A stretch of DNA of 64,000 bases, taken from contig NC_058341.1 of NCBI RefSeq assembly GCF_905475395.1, positions 61,573,501 to 61,637,500 of the forward strand, written 5' to 3'. The notes below the pieces were generated by a model. The model worked only from the letters and a program-made list of their open reading frames with translations. It did not search any database and was not told where the DNA came from. Below are positions 4,624-44,199 of the stretch, piece by piece (the first letter of the stretch is position 1; every line of letters starts with the position of its first letter). Origin of the DNA: Chrysoperla carnea (taxonomy: Eukaryota > Arthropoda > Insecta > Neuroptera > Chrysopidae). The translations under genes and the position numbers were made by a program.

Positions 4624-5679
4624 ATTTCGGATATTTTTGGACAGGAAATCAAGGTAAATTAATAATTTACAAGTGGGAATTTTCGTATGGTTATGGAGAG
4701 TAAAAAGTTCACTAAACCTGTTATAAAATGTTTTGTAAAGTGTTTTATAAATCAGTGTAATTGTTTACTTGATTTTTTTTAAAGAAAAGTGTCTTCATTG
4801 AATAAAATAGTTGTTTAATTCAATCGATTTAATAACCCCCAAAAATTTAGCCCCCGCTTTGTTCTTAAAGAATTTGAAGATATGGTTCGTTTTTTTTTTT
4901 TTTTTTTTTTTTTTGAATTTCACTGTTTTGTACCGCCCTATTTTCGAGGTATTCAATTTTATATATGCGAGGGCTAACTTCGCGCTGGCCTCCGCAACTA
5001 ATGCAACTAATAAAGGATTGTTCCAGAATATAAAGGGTAAAAACTAAAAATACGGGGATGGGGGAGTGGGTTGCTTATGAGCAAAAAATATATAATAAAA
5101 ACATTTGTTTCTTAGAAGAAATTCATAAAAGCCGATGAGATGAACCGATTAGATTTAACAGGGCAAAAATTCGTTATTTTAAACTTTAGGGTAAAAAATT
5201 TCAGAAAGGGCTCAATTTATTGAAAAAACTTAAGTAACAGAAATGTTAAATACCGATTCTTAGGAGCGGACACAAATGTATTGAACCCCTCGCCCCAAAG
5301 TGGTGGGAGTAACCTGACTACACAGGCTTTTTTGAAACTGCATTGACCTATTGAGAAATTCCAAGGAAAAAAATGATATTAGATAAAAATATATAATGGA
5401 TCTAACCCAAAAAAAAAAAAGAAACAATGCATTTTTTTGTTAAAGGTACATTCAGGCACAATCAGCGTTTAAGAAAAGAAATGGTATTAATCAAGAATTT
5501 AGTTTGGTCACACGGAGGTGTGGTATATATTTAAATTTTTATTGACATAAATTTTTCAATATACAATTTTATTTCGAGTATTGTGGTATTTATTTGACAT
5601 GTGAGTAACTGCCCTTGAACACGTTTACTTACTATCCGTATAATAAAATGTCCTTAATTCACATAAAAAAATAAATTAT

Positions 5680-16132: not shown

Positions 16133-19100
16133 CTGTAAAAATTAAATATATATTTCACTTGGAGAAATATAAATCGTTTCAGAATTTTCCTGTACTCAAT
16201 TGCTAGTTTTTTTAAGAGCTTGGTATTGCGAAATTTTTGCTTAACATATATATAATGATGTAACATGGTCTCCTTTCAAGGACATGCTCCTTACCCAATT
16301 TTTAAATATGGTTTCAATTGTTTGCTTGTACTAAGGTAAAAAAAAGGTAGTCGGGGGACATTTGAACTAAAATTTTTACTACATTTGTGTTAGCAATACA
16401 AAAAATTGTAATACTCAACAAGGTTCTGACGTTATTGTTAAATATAATAGTGCACATAGCTCCTCACCTATTGGGTTTTAGACAAAAGTAAACCAGGCAC
16501 TTTTGAATTTAAATTGTAAAGAAATACGCTCTTAAGCTATGGTCATCGACTATAGACATATGGACAACACTGTGGTGTCATTTGTTTACATTGTCTACAC
16601 ATTAGAATTCTATAGTTACTTGAATTCAAATGAATTATCCAAAGGATTGCTTATACAAAAAAAATTTCAAGAGGTATTGTCTCTCCCCCAATTAAAAAGA
16701 GTGCATCGTAGCTCCAAAACAGATGAACCGATATTGATTTTTTTTTTGTTTGAAAGGTAATTTGACCGAGAGTGTTCTTGGCTATGATTCAAGTCCGAGT
16801 TTAGGATTCCGTAAGCTATTACAACTAGAAAAGGGTGATTACTCTCTAACGTATGAGCAGATTTTCTTGAAGCATAACTAAGAACACTCTTGATCAAATT
16901 AGCTTAAAAAAAAAATCTGAATTGGTTCCACTGTTTCGGAGAACGATTCCAGAAACGAATCGATCAGATCTGATTTTATGTCGCGAGTTTCTTTAAATTT
17001 AATATTATTTGAGGCAAGGGTGTCGCCAGGCAATATGCCAGTGGGGAGGAGCAACCTGAAAGATACAGACTATGAATTATTTTGACAAATCATTCAAATC
17101 AAAATATAGCAGAGAGGAAAACGCGAAAATGGTAGTGTTTTAAAATTAAATCTTTTTTTATCATTAATTTATCAGAAATGCGATTTAAATGAAAATGAAA
17201 GTTTGAATTCAGTAGAATATTATATTTTTAAATGAAATGAGTAGAATGAATCATTTTTAAGAATCTCTAGAGGGGGCAGCTGACCCTATCTGCCCTCCTT
17301 TGGTGACGCCTATGATTTAAGGAATTATTTTATTTTAAGTAACTTATTTTTATTACTAACCATTTTCTCGAAATAATAGTATCAAATTATTGATACCCTC
17401 CATGTACGGAAAACCTTTTGTGGCTACCATATTAATTGTATAACATAAAACATTTTGCTTGAAACTATAAATAGCTGGACAATGTGTACTATCGCATACA
17501 GATTTATCACCTCGTGCAACATAAAAATCGAAAAAGAATTTATTCGCTAATGTTGCATATTTCTTCGTTGTTGTCACTTTTTGTAAATAAGGGTGTGGTG
17601 TTGTATAATTCTCAATTATCTCATAATTATCAAAAATATATTTCGAAATCGTTTCATTTGACTCATTATAGAATGAACGAAAATTTGGTGTTCCACCAAA
17701 CTTTAACGATGATGTGACTAATTCGTGTAAATTGGAAATTTGATGTTCTCGTGGGGGATCTGTTAAAATTCGTATTAGACTCGCTTGATAGAATGCATTA
17801 ATATGGATGCCATAAACGCTGACCATTAAAAAAATGGCACGAATTAATGCGGATAAGGGTCGTGTTGGTGTCGATATTCCAAATACAATACACAATCCAT
17901 TTAAAAGACATATTCCAATATCCCGTAATCCAATATCAGTCTTACTATATTTTGCTAAACAATACCATGAGATTGCACTGGCGAATAACGTACAAATTAA
18001 TGATATCCAAACGGATAATTTAAATATTGCAGCAATACTTCGCCATCTAGGTACCAATTCAGCAATTGGTACGTACCAAACAACGCAAGAACTGTAATAT
18101 GGCGTTGAAATGTAAAAATCTTCATATATTTGTTGGTTCGAGAATATATTTCCAAGAGCAATCATTGCTTCATTTTTTTGTATTTTTGAAAATAAGCCCG
18201 TCCATGTACCTGATAAAGAAAAACAAACTTATAGGTCTTAGTTAAAAAAAAAGCTAGATTTTTGCTATCAAATTACTATTTAAACTATTCGGTTTACAAA
18301 CAAATGTTCACGTATTTATAAAGAATTACTTTATAATTTAAAGCGTTCATTTAATGTTTGTCAGTAATGAATGAGAGTGAGGTTTTAATTGAACCTGAAA
18401 TCTTTGAAACGAACATTTTTTGATTGAAGCATTTTCCTCGATTAATTTTATTTATCGAATTTCAAGCATATATCACCTTAAACAAGACACCCTGTATATA
18501 GAGGAGACAGCTGTGTAATATTCTAGAATATAGCACGAACAAAAAACCATGAGCCCAAACTTTCTGCCGCGTGGTAAATAAGCTCTTGAATCAATGTGAA
18601 GCATTTTCTCTCGTTGTACATATACAGGGTTGTTCACGCTATACGACACGTAAGATTATGGCAGAACGGCTTGCTTTTGACAAAATTTTCTTTCATGAAT
18701 AGATGGAAGATTATTGTTTGTACATTTTAAAATTATATTCGTTTCGTATCACTCTGTATATTTCGAAAATAACTAAAACTTGAAATACTAGGGAGTCATA
18801 AGCTCTCTAATCATTCATTGATATTAGCCCGTGAGGGAAGGGGAGATATGTCTGCTAACATTACGTAACATTAAGGGCGATCACCAGGAAACTTATTTGG
18901 CAAAGAGCAGAAAATGTTTTCTAATTTTATTCATTTTATTTCTACCCTTCCCTCTATCTAGAAAATGTCGAAAATTGCCGCCCTTGGGAGAAAATGCTCC
19001 ACATCGACTCAGGAGTTTATTTACCACGCGGCAGAAAGTCAGGGTTCATGGATTTTTCCACGTGAATCCTAGAATATAAATGGAAATGGCTGCAAAAAAT

Positions 19101-21773
19101 ATAAATTGGGTAGCGTCTATGTCAGTCATGTGTTAACAACAGCTACTGCGATTTTCTCATAATAAATAAAAACAGTGGGTAGCATAAAAAAACAGTGGGT
19201 AGCATTTGTCTCTATCAGACAACAGCTACCGCAACTCCCTCTGTCTCTTTTATTTCTGCGGACGGATTTTATGCTGACTTGTCTTTTATATGTATATTAT
19301 CTCTATGAGTAAGTGTTTCTGACTACTCCTTTGGTATGTATCAATATCAGAAGGTCAAAATATGAACTTCACTTTTGGTATAATTGTTTTATTAAAAATT
19401 CAATACTTATCAATACCATTTTTACGCCGACCCCACGGATTTGCACTTTGTGTAAAATTCACAGTGAAATTAAAATATTGACCAATCGCTTTCAATACAT
19501 AAATCTCCATACCAGGATCAGTTTCTGCGCTTGCATTTATAACAAATGGTGGCCATGTCATTGCAACCGCTGGTATTGTACAACCATGTGAATCCGCTGG
19601 TACTTTATTATTAAATAAGTATGTAGTTGTATTTTTGATGATACCATTTGAGCATGTTGCGGTTCGCCTACAGGTGAGATTCGTTCCACATATTTTCGCC
19701 GGATTATACACATCCAAAGTGTATGCATTCACTGTATCGTTATGTAACGAAGGCAATAAGACTACTGCGTTTAGACACTGATTTTGCCATAAATATTCTA
19801 AGACTTGTTGTGCGAATGCTGTAAATTGTGTGTGTACATTATGTACGTAAATGAGAAAATTTGCACTTGGATTATATGATTTTGATTCGAATACATCGGA
19901 CATTTGTTCTTTAAAACGTATCCAAGTATCGAATATCAATATATAAAAACTATTTTTACGCTTTGATGCAAAATCCTGATCGGATGGTATTATATCGTCT
20001 GGATTTATCACTGTTTTACGATCACTTTTGGGTTTATCATCGTCGTCATTAACAATCTGAAATATTAAATATATGGATAGAGTTTTGTAACTGCAGTAAA
20101 TAGTTATTAACAGTATAGAAAGCTATTGTAATGGGTCCGATTTTCGAAATCGAAATTTTCAGCATATCTTTACGTTTCATAGTTAGGACAAGGTATTCAT
20201 TCCAATTTGAAGAAGAAATATGTGTGTGTACGTTCGTAGTCATTTTTACGTCATCGATATCACGCGAACAAAAAGTTATATCGACTTTGTTGAGGTACCG
20301 ATCAAAGCGTATTAACGGCAATGTGATTTGAAAATTATTTCATTACATTCGGTGGAGTCGTTGCGAGTCGGGCGAGTTTTTTCTTAAATTCTTTCCTGAT
20401 CGATACTATATAGCGGTGATATGATTCGAAAAGAATTTCATAAATTTCGGTCGAATCGTTCCGACTATACAATGGCGAGGGTTATATGTTTGACCGATAT
20501 GTATTTATGTTCATCTGTTTGGACCTAGCTTCTAAACTACTTATCATAATTTGAAAAATGAGGTATCGTTAGAAGCGTCTTGATCGTCCGCTAGTTATAG
20601 GTAATGTACTATCACATTATATTGAATATGGCCCCCTCTAAAGGGGCTATAACCCCGACAATTACAGAATCGTGCTCTTAAAAATATGAAAACAAGATTT
20701 TAATTTGTAGAAGACAGAGTAGAAGACAAATTATCACAAGATTCAAAGAACATATGGGCCATTTAAAATATGGAAGAATTGAAAAATCATGTGTAGCCGC
20801 TCACGTTATCGAAAACGACCACAAAATTGACAAATCAAACCTTAAGCTCCTGAAATCAGTACCCAATCCTTGCGAATTAGACGCTTATGAAAGCATCTTC
20901 ATTCAAAAGATGGGTAATGAAGCAATGAACTTGGACAAAGGACCTATTCCAAATTCGGATCTAATAAAAATTGCAAAATCAAGGTTGAATTTCTAAAAAT
21001 TGTGAATACGTTATAAAAATAAAGGATTATTTATTTTTATGATTTATTTATAGTTTTTTAATTTAGGTTTGATTTGTAATTTATTATTTTAAACGTCAAA
21101 AAATACTCGAAAGGGCTTGCGCACAAGTATCTCGCTCATTGGCCAGCACCAGTCAACTGATGGAAGTTGATTGGCTAGCGCCACTGATACTACAATTTGA
21201 CAGATACTGTGAACAGTATAAATTGTAAATACACGAAAGTAACAGTGTGCAGTCCGCCACCAAATTAGCAAAGAGTAACATTCACTAGCTAATTCTTACT
21301 GATGATGACTACTTGGTAGTCGAAAATACGTATTTTAAAAATACAAAAAACTGATCTAGGAAATTTATTTCGACATATCCTAGAGTTCTCATTTATTATC
21401 TTCGATAATATTTATAATAAGTTCTAGGTCATTTATCGTATTAAAGTGTTTCAAGTCAAGGCATTTCAATCCTGATGCACTGTATACCTATTAGTATGAT
21501 TACCTCAATTGGCCAAATACCCGCGTTATGTAATTTAACAATAACATATTTTTCAATCTCTGCTGTGGGTGATGTCATGTTAAAACTGGATGATATTCCC
21601 AGCAGACCATAGCTCTTATCAAAATTTTGCAGAGAAAAATTTAATATACAATCACCAATTCTTTGTTGACGTGTCGGTCCTTTTAAATTATATCGATTTA
21701 AACCATTGATATAATTTAATATAATTATCCAAACAACAAATAATGTAATCCAAAACATTTTGAAAAACTGCAA
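15741..21773 (-). CDS. Ionotropic receptor (IR, variant iGluR family), 4 exons, complete
   Basis: Complete 716-residue ionotropic receptor, a ligand-gated cation channel of chemosensory dendrites. Exons: 21773-21504, 20056-19417, 18209-17361, 16132-15741; phases 0, 1, 1 join cleanly. Residues 1-25 form a signal peptide. A ligand-binding S1 lobe (about 249-330) has WPPF and a GMEIYVLKAIG helix, and continues through GTWTGLF into the STPYY segment. M1 is about 362-389, the pore loop 402-418 (LNGLCIVFGIST), M2 425-451 (INAFYQASLIRIL, replacing the SYTANLAAF of true glutamate receptors), S2 about 455-590 and M3 653-676. There is no long amino-terminal domain like that of IR8a/IR25a, so it is a tuning-type or divergent IR. 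An unusual Ser/Thr/Ala-rich insertion of about 40 residues lies between S2 and M3. Orthology to a named IR could not be settled. Confidence 0.93.
16745..16900 (+). repeat. Dispersed repeat R2, palindromic copy in IR intron 3
   Basis: ACCGAGAGTGTTCTTGGCTATGATTC is followed by an inverted AACTAAGAACACTCTTGATC about 90 bases on, so two half-units sit head-to-head. Confidence 0.6.
17015..17314. mobile_element. hAT-type MITE in the ionotropic receptor intron 3
   Basis: A 300-base element that begins CAAGGGTGTCGCCAGG and ends GGTGACGCCTATG, flanked by ATTTGAGG (17007-17014) and ATTTAAGG (17315-17322), an 8-bp duplication with one change. It ends only 47 bases from the exon 3 donor. Confidence 0.78.
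17361..18209 (-). CDS. Ionotropic receptor exon 3 (M1, pore, M2, S2)
   Basis: Acceptor TTATCAG, donor GTTAGT, 849 nt. Carries the end of S1, M1, the pore loop, M2 and almost all of S2. This is the most conserved part and gives the family assignment. It ends NNLILLFREN before the split Gly. Confidence 0.94.
18230..18496. mobile_element. Foldback MITE M2, half copy in IR intron 2
   Basis: Corresponds to one arm of the element at 11472 (GCTAGATTTTTGCTATCAAA through the CACCTTAAACAAGACACCCTG end). The other arm is missing. Confidence 0.6.
18519..19077. mobile_element. Foldback MITE M3 in IR intron 2
   Basis: Left arm TTCTAGAATATAG, then CTTTCTGCCGCGTGGTAAAT and GAAGCATTTTCTC. Right arm GAGAAAATGCTCCACATCG, then TTTACCACGCGGCAGAAAGT and CCTAGAATATAA. 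The arms are about 90 bases each. Confidence 0.7.
19417..20056 (-). CDS. Ionotropic receptor exon 2 (ectodomain and S1)
   Basis: Acceptor ATTTCAG, donor GTATTG, 640 nt. Encodes an acidic linker (IVNDDDDKP), the N-terminal ectodomain with several N-glycosylation sequons and paired Cys, and most of the S1 ligand-binding lobe. A one-base remainder joins the next exon to give KNGTW. A second GT eight bases downstream would break the phase. Confidence 0.9.
20705..21395 (+). mobile_element. Penelope-like retroelement 3' fragment (GIY-YIG endonuclease C-terminus)
   Basis: Open frame to the TAA at 20994-20996 encodes RRQIITRFKEH, then EKSCVAAHVIENDHKID, LKLLKSV, ELDAYESIFIQKMG and the MNLDKGP tail. 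This arrangement is typical of the C-terminus of Penelope-like elements after their GIY-YIG endonuclease. The non-coding tail runs on to about 21395 and includes a GATGATGACTACTTGGTAGTCGAAAA stem near the end. It is 5'-truncated (reverse transcriptase absent) and lies in intron 1 of the ionotropic receptor gene on the opposite strand. Confidence 0.75.
21504..21773 (-). CDS. Ionotropic receptor exon 1 (signal peptide)
   Basis: ATG at 21773, donor GTAATC after a Glu codon, 270 nt, phase 0. A second Met five codons later is an alternative start. The first 25 residues are strongly hydrophobic (FWITLFVVWIIIL), as in a signal peptide, followed by a short ectodomain. Confidence 0.85.
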
Positions 21774-28380: not shown

Positions 28381-28408
28381 AAAAATATAATTATTATAAA
28401 GATATAGG

Positions 28409-30497
28409 ACCCATGTCACCCTAGCCCCCCCACCATCGCAAACCAAATTGGCTCAACCCAAAAAATTTTGTGCTATTTATGTGCTAATTAGTTGCTCTAT
28501 TCCCGATTTTTGTGCTCCAGCCGTTTGGCAGGAATCGACGATTGAATTTGGGGGGGCTAGGTTGACGTCACGCTAGCCCCCCCAAATCGTTATGACGACA
28601 CAAATTGAAAAAGTGAATATATGAGAATTTTGTGCTATTTATGTGCTAATTAGTTGCTCTATTCCCGATTTTTGTGCTCCAGCCGTTTGGCAGGAATCGA
28701 CGATTGAAATTGGGGGGGGCTAGGTTGACGTCACGCTAGCCCCCCCAAATCGTAATGGAGACACAAATTGAAAAAGTGAATATATGAGAATTTTGTGCTA
28801 TTTATGTGCTAATTATTTGCTCTATTCCCGATTTTGTTGCTCTAGCCGTTTGGCAGGAATCGACGATTGAAATTGGGGGGGCTAGGTTGACGTCACGCTA
28901 GCCCCCCCAAATCGTAATGACGGCACAAATTCAAAAAGTGAATATATGAGAATTTTGTGCTATTTATGTGCTTTAAGAAACCGGTAAAACATTTACGAAA
29001 ATGTCTACCGTTTACAGTGAAACCTATACATGCCCTTCCCCTACTACCACAAAAAAAATTCGTTCTATCCAAAAAATTTAGTGCTATTTATGTGCTAATT
29101 AGTTGCTCTATTCCCGATTTTATTGCTCCAGCCGTTTAGCAGGAATCAACGATTAAATGTGGGGAGGCTAGGTTAACGTTACGTTAACTCTGCCAAATCG
29201 TAATGAAGGCACAAATTCAAAAAGTGAATATATGAGAATTTTGTGCTATTTATGTGCTAATTAGTTGCTCTATTCCCGATTTTTGTGCTCCAGCCGTTTG
29301 GCAGGAATCAACGATTAAATGTGGGGAGGCTAGGTTAACGTTACGTTAACTCTGCCAAATCGTAAGGAAGGCACAAATTCAAAAAGTGAATATATGAGAA
29401 TTTTGTGCTATTTATGTGCTAATTAGTTGCTCTATTCCCGATTTTGTTGCTCCAGCCGTTTAGCAGGGATCGACGATTGAAATTTGGGGGGTTAGGTTGA
29501 CGTCACGCTAACCCCCCCAAATCGTAACGACAGCACAAAACCAAAAAGTGAATATATGGGAATTAGTTGCTATTTATGTGCTTTAAGAAACCGGTAAAAC
29601 ATTTACTAAAATGTCTACCGTTTACAGTGAAACCTATACATGCCCTTCCCCTACTACCACAAAACAAATTCGTTCTATCCAAAAAATTTAGTGCTATTTA
29701 TGTGCTAATTAGTTGCTCTATTCCCGATTTTGTTGCTCCAGCCGTTTAGCAGGAATCAACGATTAAATGTGGGGAGTCTAGGTTAACGTTACGTTAACTC
29801 TGCCAAATCGTAATGAAGGCACAAATTTAAAAAGTGAATATATGAGAATTTTGTGCTATTTATGTGCTAATTAGTTGCTCTATTCCCGATTTTTGTGCTC
29901 CAGCCGTTTGGCAGGAATCGACGATTGAAATTGGGGGGGCTAGGTTGACGTCACGCTAGCCCCCCCAAATCGTAATGGAGACACAAATTCAAAAAGTGAA
30001 TATATGAGAATTTTGTGCTATTTATGTGCTAATTAGTTGCTCTATTCCCGATTTTTGTGCTCCAGCCGTTTGGCAGGAATCGACGATTGAAATTGGGGGG
30101 GGCTAGGTTGACGTCACGCTAGCCCCCCCAAATCGTAACGATAGCACAAAACCAAAAAATGAATATATGGGAATTAGTTGCTATTTATGTGCTTTAAGAA
30201 ACCGGTAAAACATTTACGAAAATGTCTACCGTTTACAGTGAAACCTAAACATGCCCTTCCCCTACTACCACAAAGCAAATTCGTTCTATCCAAAAAATTT
30301 AGTGCTATTTATGTGCTAATTAGTTGCTCTATTCCCGATTTTGTTGCTCCAGCCGTTTAGCAGGAATCAACGATTAAATGTGCGGAGGCTAGGTTTACGT
30401 TACGTTAACTCTGCCAAATCGTAATGACGGCACAAATTCAAAAAATGAATATATGAGAATTTTGTGCTATTTATGTGCTAATTAGTTGCTTCATTCC
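28409..30497 (+). repeat. Foldback left arm: ~162-bp tandem monomers with 610-bp higher-order unit
   Basis: Monomers repeat every 162-163 bases (phase mark TGTGCTATTTATGTGC at 28631, 28794, 28956 and on). Two variants alternate. One has a GC-rich palindrome (G7CTAGGTTGACGTCAC...C7). The other has TTAACGTTACGTTAACTC in its place. A longer variant with an AAACCGGTAAAACATTTACG insert recurs at about 28957, 29567 and 30178, giving a 610-bp higher-order period. Confidence 0.9.
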
Positions 30498-31099
30498 CGT
30501 ATGATGCCTTACAGATATTTTTATTATGCTTCCTGTAGCATCGATGTAAATAGACACAGTTTCATTTGATGCATATGAACGATACACATCTAATTGAAAA
30601 TTCGACCAATAATGCACAAAAAATGGATTTAATCCTATGTTATGAATTACATTTTTCATTGGTCCCATTTTCATTATTTCTATTGAACTAACCGGATCTT
30701 TATGATAATAATTTTGTTGCTTTGATTTGTTTTTTGCATTTCGTAAAACATTTGATTTAAACAAATGCGGAGGCTCAATTTTATCACCGCATTCCATTAA
30801 ATTTTCTGCCATATCGACCATTAATTTTGCAACGCTCATTTCATCTAATTTTTGTGCAACCGCTTCCCTAACTGGATTTCTAAGGTAGCGTTTTCCGCAA
30901 AGATTCCCTGCACCTTTAATAAATTTACATTTTATTTTGGTAATTATATTTTCATTGTTATCGATATAACATTTTATTAATGACCCGTATTTGCATGTTC
31001 CACGTGCAAACCCAATTTGCGCGTTCCTATATAACTTTACTCTTTTAAAATTGAATCCGCACGATAATTTCGTACATTCCCAAATTTTGTGGGAATAAG
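30471..31099 (-). pseudogene. NOF / Mutator-like (MULE) transposase fragment
   Basis: An open frame of about 205 codons on the minus strand, from about 31099 into the left arm, with an internal ATG at 30839. It reads HKIWECTKLSCGF, then Cys-containing segments (GTCKYGSLIKC, GAGNLCGKRYLR), then PFFVHYWSNFQL and SIYIDATGSIIKI. The last resembles the first-catalytic-Asp strand (D-A-T-G-S) of the DDE domain in NOF-type proteins that are common in insect genomes. A stop lies immediately upstream, and after the DATGS strand the frame runs into arm repeat and ends. The rest of the catalytic core (second Asp, Glu) is missing, so it cannot be active. The assignment rests on motif resemblance recalled from the family. 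Confidence 0.65.
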
Positions 31100-32011
31100 T
31101 TCATAACTATTACATTTTGTAAAAAAAATATATGTATATATGTAAAATTTTTATGTTTTTTTGAATAAATTTATATTTTTCGAACCAGTTTTTTTTTTTT
31201 TTTTTTTTTTTTGTTTAATCAGCAATGTGTATTACCAAAAAAATAAGTATTGGGTTTTAGAGAGAACATACGGTTTAAAAATATGCAGAGTACACCAACG
31301 TGGCCCGGACACACGTAAGCAATTAAAATTTATTTGTAACAACTTTTTAGAAAATTGTTACGCGTTATTTAATTCTCGATAAACAATTAAAAATGTGTCG
31401 GGTGCTGAAACATAGCTCGAGAGGATTTTTCTATTGCAAATCGATACAATTTTAAATAAAAATAATATCAATTTTACGGGTACTCGGATCACAGCAATAC
31501 AGATATTCGTGAATAATTGCGTAATCACAGCCGTTGCTCACATACCCTTTGATGACAACACTTCTAGTGGTAGATTTCAAAACAAATTATAAAAATCAAA
31601 TTAATTTGAGTACACGGGTACATTATCTAAACTTGTTGGATTTTCTATATAATTAATTTAGATAGACATAGAATTATGTGTAAACATTACCAGAAGAAAT
31701 TAATAAATGATTTGGATTTTATTATCCGCAGATCAATAAAATATCAACTACAGATATTTAAATTCTTTCTATACAACTATCGATTATACGAGTAACCTAT
31801 GTAGAGTTTGTGTCGATAGTTTTAAGGTATGTAAAGGTTTCACAGTAAAAAGTAGTGCCATTGAGAAAATGTTACAGTGGATACTCGGAGCAACGAAAAA
31901 TCAAAAAAATGACAAAAATTTATTAATTGAATTTGTATTGTATTTAACATGGTGATGAAGCTAGCTTAACGTTTACCTGGTCCCATCGTGTTAAGTTATG
32001 GTCGTATTCTG
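31100..32011. other. Foldback core, remaining unassigned sequence
   Basis: AT-rich, with a 25-base T run at about 31191 and a short open frame (31161-31382 +) that includes RTYGLKICRVHQRGPDTRKQ. No family was recognised. It may be degraded transposon coding sequence or captured DNA. Confidence 0.4.
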
Positions 32012-34938
32012 CTAAACGGCTTGAGCAACAAAATCGGGAATAGAGCAACTAATTAGCACATAAATAGCACAAAATTCTCATATATTCACTTTTTGAATTT
32101 GTGCCTTCATTACGATTTGGCAGAGTTAACGTAACGTTAACCTAGCCTCCCCACATTTAATCGTTGATTCCTGCCAAACGGCTGGAGCACAAAAATCGGG
32201 AATAGAGCAACTAATTAGCACATAAATAGCACAAAATTCTCATATATTCACTTTTTGAATTTGTGTCTCCATTACGATTTGGGGGGGCTAGCGTGACGTC
32301 AACCTAGCCCCCCCAATTTCAATCGTCGATCCCTGCTAAACGGCTAGAGCAACAAAATCGGGAATAGAGCAACTAATTAGCACATAAATAGCACAAAATT
32401 CTCATATATTCACTTTTTGAATTTGTGCCTTCCTTACGATTTGGCAGAGTTAACGTAACGATAACCTAGCCTCCCCACATTTAATCGTTGATTCCTGCCA
32501 AACGGCTGGAGCACAAAAATCGGGAATAGAGCAACTAATTAGCACATAAATAGCACAAAATTCTCATATATTCACTTTTTGAATTTGTGCCTTCATTACG
32601 ATTTGGCAGAGTTAACGTAACGTTAACCTAGCCTCCCCACATTTAATCGTTGATTCCTGCTAAACGGCTGGAGCAATAAAATCGGGAATAGAGCAACTAA
32701 TTAGCACATAAATAGCACTAAATTTTTTGGATAGAACGAATTTTTTTTGTGGTAGTAGGGGAAGGGCATGTATAGGTTTCACTGTAAACGGTAGACATTT
32801 TCGTAAATGTTTTACCGGTTTCTTAAAGCACATAAATAGCACAAAATTCTCATATATTCACTTTTTGAATTTGTGCCGTCATTACGATTTGGGGGGGCTA
32901 GCGTGACGTCAACCTAGCCCCCCCAATTTCAATCGTCGATTCCTGCCAAACGGCTAGAGCAACAAAATCGGGAATAGAGCAACTAATTAGCACATAAATA
33001 GCACAAAATTCTCATATATTCACTTTTTCAATTTGTGTCTCCATTACGATTTGGGGGGGCTAGCGTGACGTCAACCTAGCCCCCCCCCAATTTCAATCGT
33101 CGATCCCTGCTAAACGGCTGGAGCAACAAAATTGGGAATAGAGCAACTAATTAGCACATAAATAGCACAAAATTCTCATATATTCACTTTTTGAATTTGT
33201 GCCTTCCTTACGATTTGGCAGAGTTAACGTAACGTTAACCTAGCCTCCCCACATTTAATCGTTGATTCCTGCCAAACGGCTGGAGCACAAAAATCGGGAA
33301 TAGAGCAACTAATTAGCACATAAATAGCACAAAATTCTCATATATTCACTTTTTGAATTTGTGCCTTCATTACGATTTGGCAGAGTTAACGTAACGTTAA
33401 CCTAGCCTCCCCACATTTAATCGTTGATTCCTGCTAAACGGCTGGAGCAATAAAATCGGGAATAGAGCAACTAATTAGCACATAAATAGCACTAAATTTT
33501 TTGGATAGAACGAATTTTTTTTGTGGTAGTAGGGGAAGGGCATGTATAGGTTTCACTGTAAACGGTAGACATTTTCGTAAATGTTTTACCGGTTTCTTAA
33601 AGCACATAAATAGCACAAAATTCTCATATATTCACTTTTTGAATTTGTGCCGTCATTACGATTTGGGGGGGCTAGCGTGACGTCAACCTAGCCCCCCCAA
33701 TTTCAATCGTCGATTCCTGCCAAACGGCTAGAGCAACAAAATCGGGAATAGAGCAACTAATTAGCACATAAATAGCACAAAATTCTCATATATTCACTTT
33801 TTCAATTTGTGTCTCCATTACGATTTGGGGGGGCTAGCGTGACGTCAACCTAGCCCCCCCCCCAATTTCAATCGTCGATCCCTGCTAAACGGCTGGAGCA
33901 ACAAAATTGGGAATAGAGCAACTAATTAGCACATAAATAGCACAAAATTCTCATATATTCACTTTTTGAATTTGTGCCTTCCTTACGATTTGGCAGAGTT
34001 AACGTAACGTTAACCTAGCCTCCCCACATTTAATCGTTGATTCCTGCCAAACGGCTGGAGCACAAAAATCGGGAATAGAGCAACTAATTAGCACATAAAT
34101 AGCACAAAATTCTCATATATTCACTTTTTGAATTTGTGCCTTCATTACGATTTGGCAGAGTTAACGTAACGTTAACCTAGCCTCCCCACATTTAATCGTT
34201 GATTCCTGCTAAACGGCTGGAGCAATAAAATCGGGAATAGAGCAACTAATTAGCACATAAATAGCACTAAATTTTTTGGATAGAACGAATTTTTTTTGTG
34301 GTAGTAGGGGAAGGGCATGTATAGGTTTCACTGTAATCGGTAGACATTTTCGTAAATGTTTTACCGGTTTCTTAAAGCACATAAATAGCACAAAATTCTC
34401 ATATATTCACTTTTTGAATTTGTGCCGTCATTACGATTTGGGGGGGCTAGCGTGACGTCAACCTAGCCCCCCCAATTTCAATCGTCGATTCCTGCCAAAC
34501 GGCTAGAGCAACAAAATCGGGAATAGAGCAACTAATTAGCACATAAATAGCACAAAATTCTCATATATTCACTTTTTCAATTTGTGTCTCCATTACGATT
34601 TGGGGGGGCTAGCGTGACGTCAACCTAGCCCCCCCAATTTCAATCGTCGATTCCTGCCAAACGGCTGGAGCACAAAAATCGGGAATAGAGCAACTAATTA
34701 GCACATAAATAGCACAAAATTCTCATATATTCACTTTTTCAATTTGTGTCGTCATAACGATTTGGGGGGGCTAGCGTGACGTCAACCTAGCCCCCCCAAT
34801 TTCAATCGTCGATTCCTGCCAAACGGCTGGAGCACAAAAATCGGGAATAGAGCAACTAATTAGCACATAAATAGCACAAAATTTTTTGGGTTGAGCCAAT
34901 TTGGTTTGCGATGGTGGGGGGGCTAGGGTGACATGGGT
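32012..34938 (-). repeat. Foldback right arm: same monomers inverted, 774-bp higher-order unit
   Basis: Inverted copy of the left-arm monomers, about 0.84 kb longer. The insert-bearing variant recurs at 32660, 33434 and 34209, a 774-775 base higher-order unit whose copies look almost identical. This indicates recent duplication inside this arm only. Confidence 0.9.
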
Positions 34939-34949
34939 AGATATAGGGC

Positions 34950-42573: not shown

Positions 42574-43473
42574 TCAATCGTCTTTCTTTTTTCGTAATTT
42601 ACCTTCAGTTTGTATTGTCCGACTAACAAGATCAACACAATTGGCTAATGGAGGTTCACTCTGATCCGCACTGTAATCAGTGCCGGCCACACGAGATAAT
42701 GTTAAAATATATGAACACGCAATTCGTAACACAGATAATTTTGATAATTTTTGATTATGAGAGTACGCAGGTATTGCACGTCGTAAAGTGTCAAATGCTG
42801 CACTAATTGTATGCACTCGGGTACGTTCGCGTGCATTCGCTTCTATTCGTCGTTCACGTGTCATATTTTTATAATTACGATGTTCCTTTTGCTGTTGTGA
42901 TGATAATTTCTGTTGTTGCGTTGTGAACTTTGTTGGTTCTGGAACATTCTGGGGTGTGGTGGATTGGTGTCTTGGGGGTATAACACCAGGATGTGGGGGT
43001 ACACGATGGTAATCTTCAGTAGGAAATCGTGCAAAATCTTTAGGTCTTATTGATGCTATCGATGTTGATACTTGTGGCTCATCAATCTTTTTACTCCTTT
43101 TTTCAACTTTGACCAATGATAATGGTTCATCTTGTGCTATCAGTGGTGGGGGTTTGTAACCATAAACTGGATGATACGGTACAATATTTGGATCGTTGTT
43201 ATTATCACTACTACTCCATGGTCGAAATGGATTTTGATTTTCAATTGATGTCGGCGTAGTGGTAATATCTCGACGGATTCTTTTCTTTAATGGACCTACT
43301 TCATTCAAGGGTACTTTACGGGGCTCAGCACATTTTCGTTTATTTTTATTACGAGGTGATATTGGTGTTACTTTCACTTCGATACTATCTTCACTGGCAT
43401 CTGTTGGTGAATGTACATCATCTACATCGATGTCATCTTCACCCGAACAAAATCCGGCATCTTTGTCAGACAT
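42574..43473 (-). CDS. net: bHLH transcription factor net / ATOH8
   Basis: Single coding exon of 299 residues. The bHLH (about residues 207-260) begins with the basic segment NARERTRVHT and continues through ISAAFDTLRR to QKLSKLSVLRIACSYIL. The HTISAAF and ILRIAC-type residues identify the ATOH8/net group rather than atonal or NeuroD proteins. In Drosophila, net represses rhomboid and patterns wing veins. The N-terminal half is disordered, with acidic (residues 12-20), basic (KKRIRRD) and Gln-rich (about 187-197) patches and an EPLSLVKVE motif near 117-125. Length is near that of ATOH8 (321 residues). The ATG lies eight bases inside an exon that starts after a good acceptor (TTTCAG, exon edge 43481), so at least one 5' non-coding exon exists upstream (at higher coordinates). 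Confidence 0.95.
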   Translation of the reverse strand: MSDKDAGFCSGEDDIDVDDVHSPTDASEDSIEVKVTPISPRNKNKRKCAEPRKVPLNEVGPLKKRIRRDITTTPTSIENQNPFRPWSSSDNNNDPNIVPYHPVYGYKPPPLIAQDEPLSLVKVEKRSKKIDEPQVSTSIASIRPKDFARFPTEDYHRVPPHPGVIPPRHQSTTPQNVPEPTKFTTQQQKLSSQQQKEHRNYKNMTRERRIEANARERTRVHTISAAFDTLRRAIPAYSHNQKLSKLSVLRIACSYILTLSRVAGTDYSADQSEPPLANCVDLVSRTIQTEGKLRKKKDD

Positions 43474-43481
43474 AATTGAAC
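43474..43481 (-). other. net: 5' UTR remainder and splice acceptor of the net coding exon
   Basis: On the minus strand a pyrimidine-rich tract ends in TTTCAG at 43482, followed by eight non-coding bases and the ATG at 43473. This shows an upstream 5' UTR exon. Confidence 0.75.
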
Positions 43482-44199
43482 CTGAAATTAATAAAAAACC
43501 ATAAATTAGTCAAAAATTCAAATTTTCGAAATTTCTTTAAATTAATCTAAGAGTTTAAATTTTAATTTGCTACAAATATAGTTACGAGTTTTAATATGTT
43601 TTATAGTTTATTATTGGTTTTTTTCTCTGAATTTCATTTTTCATTTGTAAACATTTATACGTAAATAAACTTTTTACCCGACTGTCAAGGAAGGGTTATA
43701 TTTTTCGCGCGTATCTTGTATATACGTATTTGTTTGTAAATTTCTTTATTTCCTCGTATCTTCCAAACGGCTGGATGTTTCGACAGTAAAAGTATCATTA
43801 TATTCGTCTTAAAAACTCAAGTGTCCTTAGATAGGTGTTTGAAAAAAAAGACAAAATGGCGGATTTTTGGCACGAAATAGTAATACGTCAATAAAAAAAA
43901 ATAACCAAACCTATCGAATAGGGTATCAAAATAAAAGAAATTGAAAGGGGATCACGAAAATAAATATAATTGATATAATTTTATAATAATAAATTGGATT
44001 GAAAAGTTTTAATATAGTAATAGTCCCTTTGCATAACTGAATAGGTATCATTCAATAGATATATAAAAATTCTAAATAAAAAATGAAAAATAATCAAAAA
44101 CGCGACGTTGTTAATTAAAGAAAGTTGTTTCCCATTATTGGGAAAATTTGAGCCGGTCTATTTTAATTAGTGTTGTCAGACGAAAGAACAACTGGAAAT

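Follow-up and report, generated by a model that had tools for sequence, protein, structure and literature searches.

A probable recently moved Foldback transposon of a Mutator-like family in the genome of Chrysoperla carnea

We analyzed a 64,000-nucleotide stretch of the Chrysoperla carnea genome (C5:61573501-61637500; hereafter the window), working from the assembly of one individual (559 Mb in 337 contigs). Positions 28409-34938 of the window are occupied by an element of 6,530 bp whose borders could be fixed to the base. The 9-bp sequence AGATATAGG was read on its left flank (28400-28408) and again on its right flank (34939-34947), and both ends carry, reading inward, the inverted sequence ACCCATGTCACCC. 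The left tip (28409-28432, plus strand) is ACCCATGTCACCCTAGCCCCCCCA, a terminal motif that is also found within the repeats described below, and the right tip (34915-34938, minus strand) is its inverted copy. Over the outer 217 bp, the two ends differed at approximately one position (p = 0.005). The exact borders, the 9-bp target duplication, and the single difference across the outer ~200 bases had all been claimed in a preliminary description of this locus, and each was upheld. We interpret the element, with a probability of about 0.9, as a DNA transposon with Foldback structure that is non-autonomous, moved recently, and belongs to a Mutator-like family of the Rehavkus/MULE-NOF type. An Rfam scan of the window returned no matches at gathering scores.

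The element has the structure that characterizes Foldback transposons, namely long inverted arms of tandem repeats flanking a middle part. The left arm (28409-30499, plus strand, ~2.09 kb) and the right arm (31998-34938, minus strand, ~2.94 kb) consist of two classes of 162-bp monomer, A and B, together with a 125-bp spacer (s). From the outside inward, the left arm reads tip, then AAAsBBAsBAAsB, and the right arm reads AAAsBBAAsBBAAsBBAB. The arm lengths and the ~162-bp monomer had been recognized in the preliminary description, which missed the spacer and the higher-order unit. Each arm contains the spacer three times, so that monomers and spacer together form the true, higher-order arm unit: three monomers and a spacer in the left arm (~611 bp), and four monomers and a spacer in the right arm (~774 bp). 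The arms match each other at 98% across their outer 1,177 bp, and their monomer order diverges further inward. Two neighboring 774-bp units in the right arm (32827-34375, minus strand) were identical at 773 of 774 aligned bases, which is very recent array growth. The three left-arm units were only 92-96% alike, indicating that the left and right arms change independently. The outermost AAA block was kept in 30 of the 44 arms listed for 22 elements.

The arm repeats contain sequence of the tip. Tip positions 7-24 (GTCACCCTAGCCCCCCCA) recur twice in each class-A monomer, head to head, and thereby form a palindrome around TGACGTCA, as in the first such monomer (28464-28625, plus strand). This palindrome, which is the mark of class A, was present in 14 of 25 monomer centers. 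When GTCACCCTAGCCCCCCCA was aligned to the class-A monomer, the local score was 31 in both orientations, compared with 25 for the best of 500 shuffles. Allowing one mismatch at most, we counted 29 tip-like sites in the element, including the two tips, with none elsewhere in the window and none in 200 shuffles. The spacer also resembles the tip: in its first copy (28966-29090, plus strand), a 53-bp piece is 79% identical to tip positions 19-71. Separately, TGACGTCA, the consensus cAMP-response element (CRE; the CREB/ATF site), occurs 14 times in the element (class-A monomers, 28464-34883) and twice in the remainder of the window.

The middle part contradicts the earlier description of the transposon as intact; the window copy is a deletion derivative. 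It keeps only residues ~170-361 of a predicted 1,104-residue transposase, in a gene remnant (30518-31088, minus strand) that breaks off directly behind DATGS, the motif of the first catalytic Asp, and is covered by an open frame of 209 aa (30471-31100, minus strand). This remnant is followed by a 30-bp filler at the deletion junction (31089-31118, minus strand) and then by the region 3′ of the gene. The latter, a subterminal region at 31119-32076 (minus strand) that extends into the innermost part of the right arm, is 95-96% identical to the corresponding sequence in a longer, 13.4-kb copy. The same junction was common to 12 of 21 elements; its filler was identical in ten of these and carried one or two substitutions in the other two (L014 and L016). 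The cores of the 12 scar-sharing copies diverged by 0.2-2.8% (mean 1.5%, gaps left out), and the window copy differed by 0.5% from their majority sequence and by 3.1% from the 13.4-kb copy. The simplest reading is a single deletion event with subsequent spread in trans. The window copy is non-autonomous and would need the enzyme of another copy.

A genome search with the 209-aa frame detected 12 further loci at 93-98% identity, one of which lies within a 1,046-aa open frame on C1. This frame belongs to the longer copy, which spans 13,377 bp (C1:126632423-126645799) and is flanked by the duplication AGTTTTAAA. Together with a second exon, it gives the predicted protein of 1,104 aa. The exons were joined by homology over a predicted 290-bp intron (donor AG/GTGCGT, acceptor TTTACAG/GA), and an uninterrupted protein from Photinus aligns across the predicted join (38%, 296 aa). 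The inverted arms of this copy are 99% identical over 4.05 kb, extending to element positions 5165 and 8665. They enclose an entire peptidase-like region of the gene, whose boxes are found on both strands, and exclude the catalytic D, D, and E as well as the zinc finger.

We searched the 559-Mb genome for the tip using a 22-base pattern with up to three mismatches and its reversed form as a control. The pattern listed 68 tips (45 of them exact) and the control none, indicating that these matches do not arise by chance; the copy counts derived from them are lower bounds. Plus/minus pairing of the tips gave 25 pairs, whose lengths range from 124 to 13,377 bp, and left 18 tips without a partner. 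For one of the latter (L024), the right end was not seen in the fetched stretch. Among the 25 pairs, both borders of which were examined, 21 had perfect 9-bp duplications, all different, and two had imperfect ones, with one mismatch (L060) or two (L022). Many copies with different 9-bp duplications were what the preliminary description had proposed as a check of mobility, and they were found. The element is mobile DNA rather than a duplication. Segmental duplication was ruled out, as both the flanks and the 9-bp duplications differ among copies. The 21 duplications were 74% A+T, compared with 70% in the window, and their sixth position was A or T in every case. The shortest pair (L058, C1:32288817-32288940) is a 124-bp miniature, barely more than two tips, with the perfect duplication CTCAATCTG.

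For 19 elements with perfect duplications, the flanks were joined and used to search the whole genome for empty sites, with the best 40 candidates scored per search. Paralogues crossing the junction were detected for five of the 19. They lay at ten places for L010, seven for L019, and three for L044; the 13.4-kb copy had more than 30, mostly at 80-85% identity, and L009 had 30, of which 29 reached only ~31 bases beyond the junction. Base-by-base alignment of two paralogues for each of the five sites, ten in all, showed a single 9-mer in every one, with one change in one of the two for L010 and one and two changes in the pair for L044. No empty-site paralogue was detected among the best 40 candidates for the other 14 joined flanks, which is weak evidence of absence because only those candidates were scored.

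In an alignment of 26 proteins, D354, D425, R463, D465, and H468 of the predicted transposase were invariant, and E654 and C846 nearly so. In the predicted protein, Pfam detected a SCAND3-like zinc finger (PF23663, 7.4e-10), and no PHD finger was matched at E up to 10. Among 15 aligned relatives, five matched MULE (best 7.6e-4), and three of the 15 aligned proteins matched UCH, the ubiquitin hydrolase domain (best 2.4e-5). The three named proteins among 25 database matches were all from beetles, at 33% and 36% identity in Phaedon cochleariae and 39% in Photinus pyralis, where the alignment covers 98% of the 1,042-aa query. The Photinus protein (hypothetical protein PPYR_02403, listed in UniRef as a SCAN domain-containing protein) has the same SCAND3 zinc finger and bears no transposon name, and its 38%, 296-aa alignment passes through the predicted splice into the His box described below. 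In a tree of the 26 proteins, the lacewing gene grouped with four unnamed proteins (P0012, P0013, P0015, and P0018; support 100/99), and the midpoint root placed it opposite three other transposase families of its own genome.

These other families were represented by proteins of ~1107 aa (L041, the same match at 13 places), ~1082 aa (L042, 19 places), and 1203 aa (L043, two places). Besides the window family, the genome contains no fewer than three related transposase families with long open frames. The uniformity of the matched stretch within them suggests that they multiplied in recent bursts. An inverted-repeat search, restricted to short stretches around the 1107-, 1082-, and 1203-aa genes, did not reveal long arms.

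Among known elements, FB-NOF of Drosophila melanogaster combines tandem-repeat Foldback arms and 9-bp duplications with a Mutator-type transposase present in a minority of copies, and Rehavkus is another name for MULE-NOF. In classic FB elements the repeat unit is short, at 31 bp, with units grouped into ~155 bp; our literature search did not confirm these lengths. By this description, the window family shares the arms, the duplications, and the type of transposase with FB-NOF and differs from it in the length of the unit.

Rehavkus is described as generating 9-bp duplications and carrying a minisatellite and a PHD finger, and a table gives its terminal inverted repeats as 26-400 bp (PMC6446971). 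The window family has the 9-bp duplication, a block of tandem repeats at its termini, and a MULE-like DDE transposase (MULE being matched in relatives only), and its arms of 2-5 kb lie outside the tabulated range. This range seems not to define Rehavkus, because Rehavkus-1_TC of Tribolium castaneum itself carries arrays in its inverted termini; it is a 9.5-kb DNA transposon whose inverted termini carry tandem arrays of the 164-bp unit TCsat23, mostly of five and eight monomers (PMC10218199). With its long-unit tandem arrays in inverted termini and the 9-bp duplications of its group, Rehavkus-1_TC is the nearest known element by architecture. Compared by description, its 164-bp unit contrasts with a 162-bp unit in two classes and a 125-bp spacer here. 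A new family of the Rehavkus/MULE-NOF kind is the best reading. As it is based on architecture and description and no PHD finger was detected, the label is the best filing rather than a proof.

The monomer length, which had been regarded as exceptional, is not so: the unit of Rehavkus-1_TC is 164 bp (PMC10218199), and that of Tetris is ~220 bp (PMC4079207). Tetris is a non-autonomous Foldback of Drosophila virilis with 8-10 bp duplications, and its repeats share 37 bp with the terminal domain (PMC4079207). No autonomous partner is reported for Tetris, whereas the window family has a longer copy with a transposase gene. Galileo of Drosophila carries multiple transposase-binding sites in the tandem repeats of its long arms, which change length independently (PMC3688188, PMC3573991). 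Its transposase belongs to the P superfamily and has a THAP domain, and the window family is not related to it by descent.

As Galileo likewise has long, repetitive arms in which binding sites recur (PMC3688188, PMC3573991), the architecture would also fit a Galileo-like Foldback of the P superfamily, similar by convergence only. We consider this highly improbable, because the predicted transposase of the 13.4-kb copy contains a SCAND3 zinc finger and no THAP match, its relatives match MULE, and the duplications are 9 bp long. Composite inverted repeats with 9-bp duplications are likewise known from Tm1 of root-knot nematodes (PMC3169594), a Mutator element of the Phantom type, which is distinguished by a FLYWCH zinc finger. 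No FLYWCH match was detected at E up to 10 in four proteins or in the predicted 1104-aa protein, nor at 0.1 in 15 aligned proteins, and a Phantom-type element is therefore very unlikely. These protein sets gave no THAP match either.

It is equally improbable that a host satellite was captured, or inserted as an inverted array, so that the repeats came first and the transposon-like appearance is secondary. The arms are indeed tandem arrays, and a 164-bp satellite of Tribolium is shared with Rehavkus-1_TC (PMC10218199). Against this origin stand, in the tip-bearing copies that the genome search covered, the exact ends, the 9-bp duplications that differ among 21 of the 25 pairs, the AAA outer block in 30 of 44 arms, and the tip-like motifs in the class-A monomers and the spacer. 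They show the repeats to belong to the element itself.

Several observations weigh against our interpretation of the element as a recently moved Foldback transposon of the Rehavkus/MULE-NOF type. Eleven of the 25 monomers belong to class B, with a diverged center that lacks the full tip-like motif, and two of the 25 tip pairs (L059 and C2:93195447-93200158) have no duplication. The empty-site check suggested in the preliminary description succeeded for the five flanks mentioned above and failed for the window site, which yielded no empty-site paralogue when searched alone in the genome. Within this one assembly, all empty sites are paralogues and none is allelic; present-day movement is consequently inferred from the low divergence. 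The long open frame was found in only one copy of the window family by the 209-aa-frame genome search, and the 1,104-aa gene depends on a predicted splice site. Pfam MULE did not match the family's own predicted protein and remained below the cut-off in L041 (15.0 vs 27.6 bits). The MULE label thus leans on relatives, as does the UCH label, since UCH matched the predicted 1104-aa protein only below threshold (E 0.098, 12.7 vs 23.9 bits). The Mutator link proposed in the preliminary description is supported by the longer copy's transposase gene and its relatives, and not by a Pfam match to the family's own protein. Transposase binding, also to the arm repeats, cutting, and mobilization in trans are presumed from the sequence.

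In the model we propose, the transposase of a longer copy would recognize the tip motif GTCANCCTAGCCCCCCCA at both ends and would probably also bind the tip-like sites in the arms, two per class-A monomer. The arms may then serve as docking platforms whose multiple sites increase specificity and affinity, and in its simplest form the model has the arm monomers as extra transposase-binding sites that grew out of the tip. The element would be cut and pasted in trans with a 9-bp staggered cut, and unequal exchange or slippage would make the arms longer or shorter. Filler-bearing internal deletions, as in the window copy, would most likely stem from interrupted repair of the excision gap, and the gene-deficient form could then have spread in trans because it retained all end sequences. 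Transposase-binding sites have been footprinted in the arms of Galileo (PMC3688188) and proposed for the arm repeats of Tetris (PMC4079207). As many arm monomers hold the doubled tip motif, the purpose of Foldback arms becomes testable here. The family offers a clean system within one genome, comprising a longer gene-bearing copy, a recent non-autonomous swarm with a single scar, derivatives as small as 124 bp, and paralogous empty sites.

The least expected feature is a Mutator-type transposase with a peptidase-like region attached to it. Toward its C-terminus, the predicted protein contains a Cys box, NTCAFDS (844), and a His box, GHYSCIS (1061), which fit a peptidase of the ubiquitin-specific protease (USP) type. 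Among 35 database relatives, many of them short or cut pieces, the part of the protein beginning at residue 791 is matched by 24 at E up to 1e-3; the Cys box is present in 21, and ten also contain the GHY box. These boxes, the three UCH matches among 15 proteins, and the sub-threshold UCH match are the basis of the peptidase reading. A sequence search against solved structures with alignment A1 gave weak USP matches (USP12 and USP8; six distinct sequences, E 0.045-0.39, within 902-1040); the same search gave no USP match with the C-terminal part of L041 alone or with alignment A2.

We tentatively suggest, as a possibility that is rather doubtful at present, that the transposases of this group (the window family, L041, L042, and several relatives) are fused to a working USP-like domain, and that each arm of the 13.4-kb copy encodes the whole peptidase-like region. 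If so, the transposon would bring its own deubiquitinase, for example sparing its enzyme from destruction or opening chromatin. Arms grown inward over this region would be protein-coding, and RNA transcribed from the full length could form a long hairpin; Galileo provides a precedent for arms recruiting internal sequence (PMC3573991). Our literature searches, made with narrow combinations of terms and with Repbase reports and most subscription journals lying outside their coverage, found no paper joining a foldback, NOF, or Mutator-type transposase with ubiquitin or a USP domain, and none linking SCAND3 with Mutator; the fusion may nevertheless have been published. Ubiquitin was not mentioned in two papers on Rehavkus that were searched for it.

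Other features were also noted. On the 140-Mb contig C1, a COX1 open frame of 542 aa without a stop (C1:138886126-138887466, L045), judged by eye to be of bacterial type, lies next to a 267-aa frame; an endosymbiont gene acquired by lateral transfer, or a chimera in the assembly, would account for it. The other matches of the COX1 search were three short, stop-containing fragments. Within the window, positions 17356-20122 (minus strand) contain pieces of an ionotropic-receptor-like gene, with a PF24061 ligand-binding domain (2.4e-10) and a Lig_chan match under the cut-off (0.0014); like the beetle relatives of the transposase, they are in keeping with an insect host. An open frame of 311 aa at 42574-43509 (minus strand) encodes a helix-loop-helix domain (PF00010, 6.1e-17).

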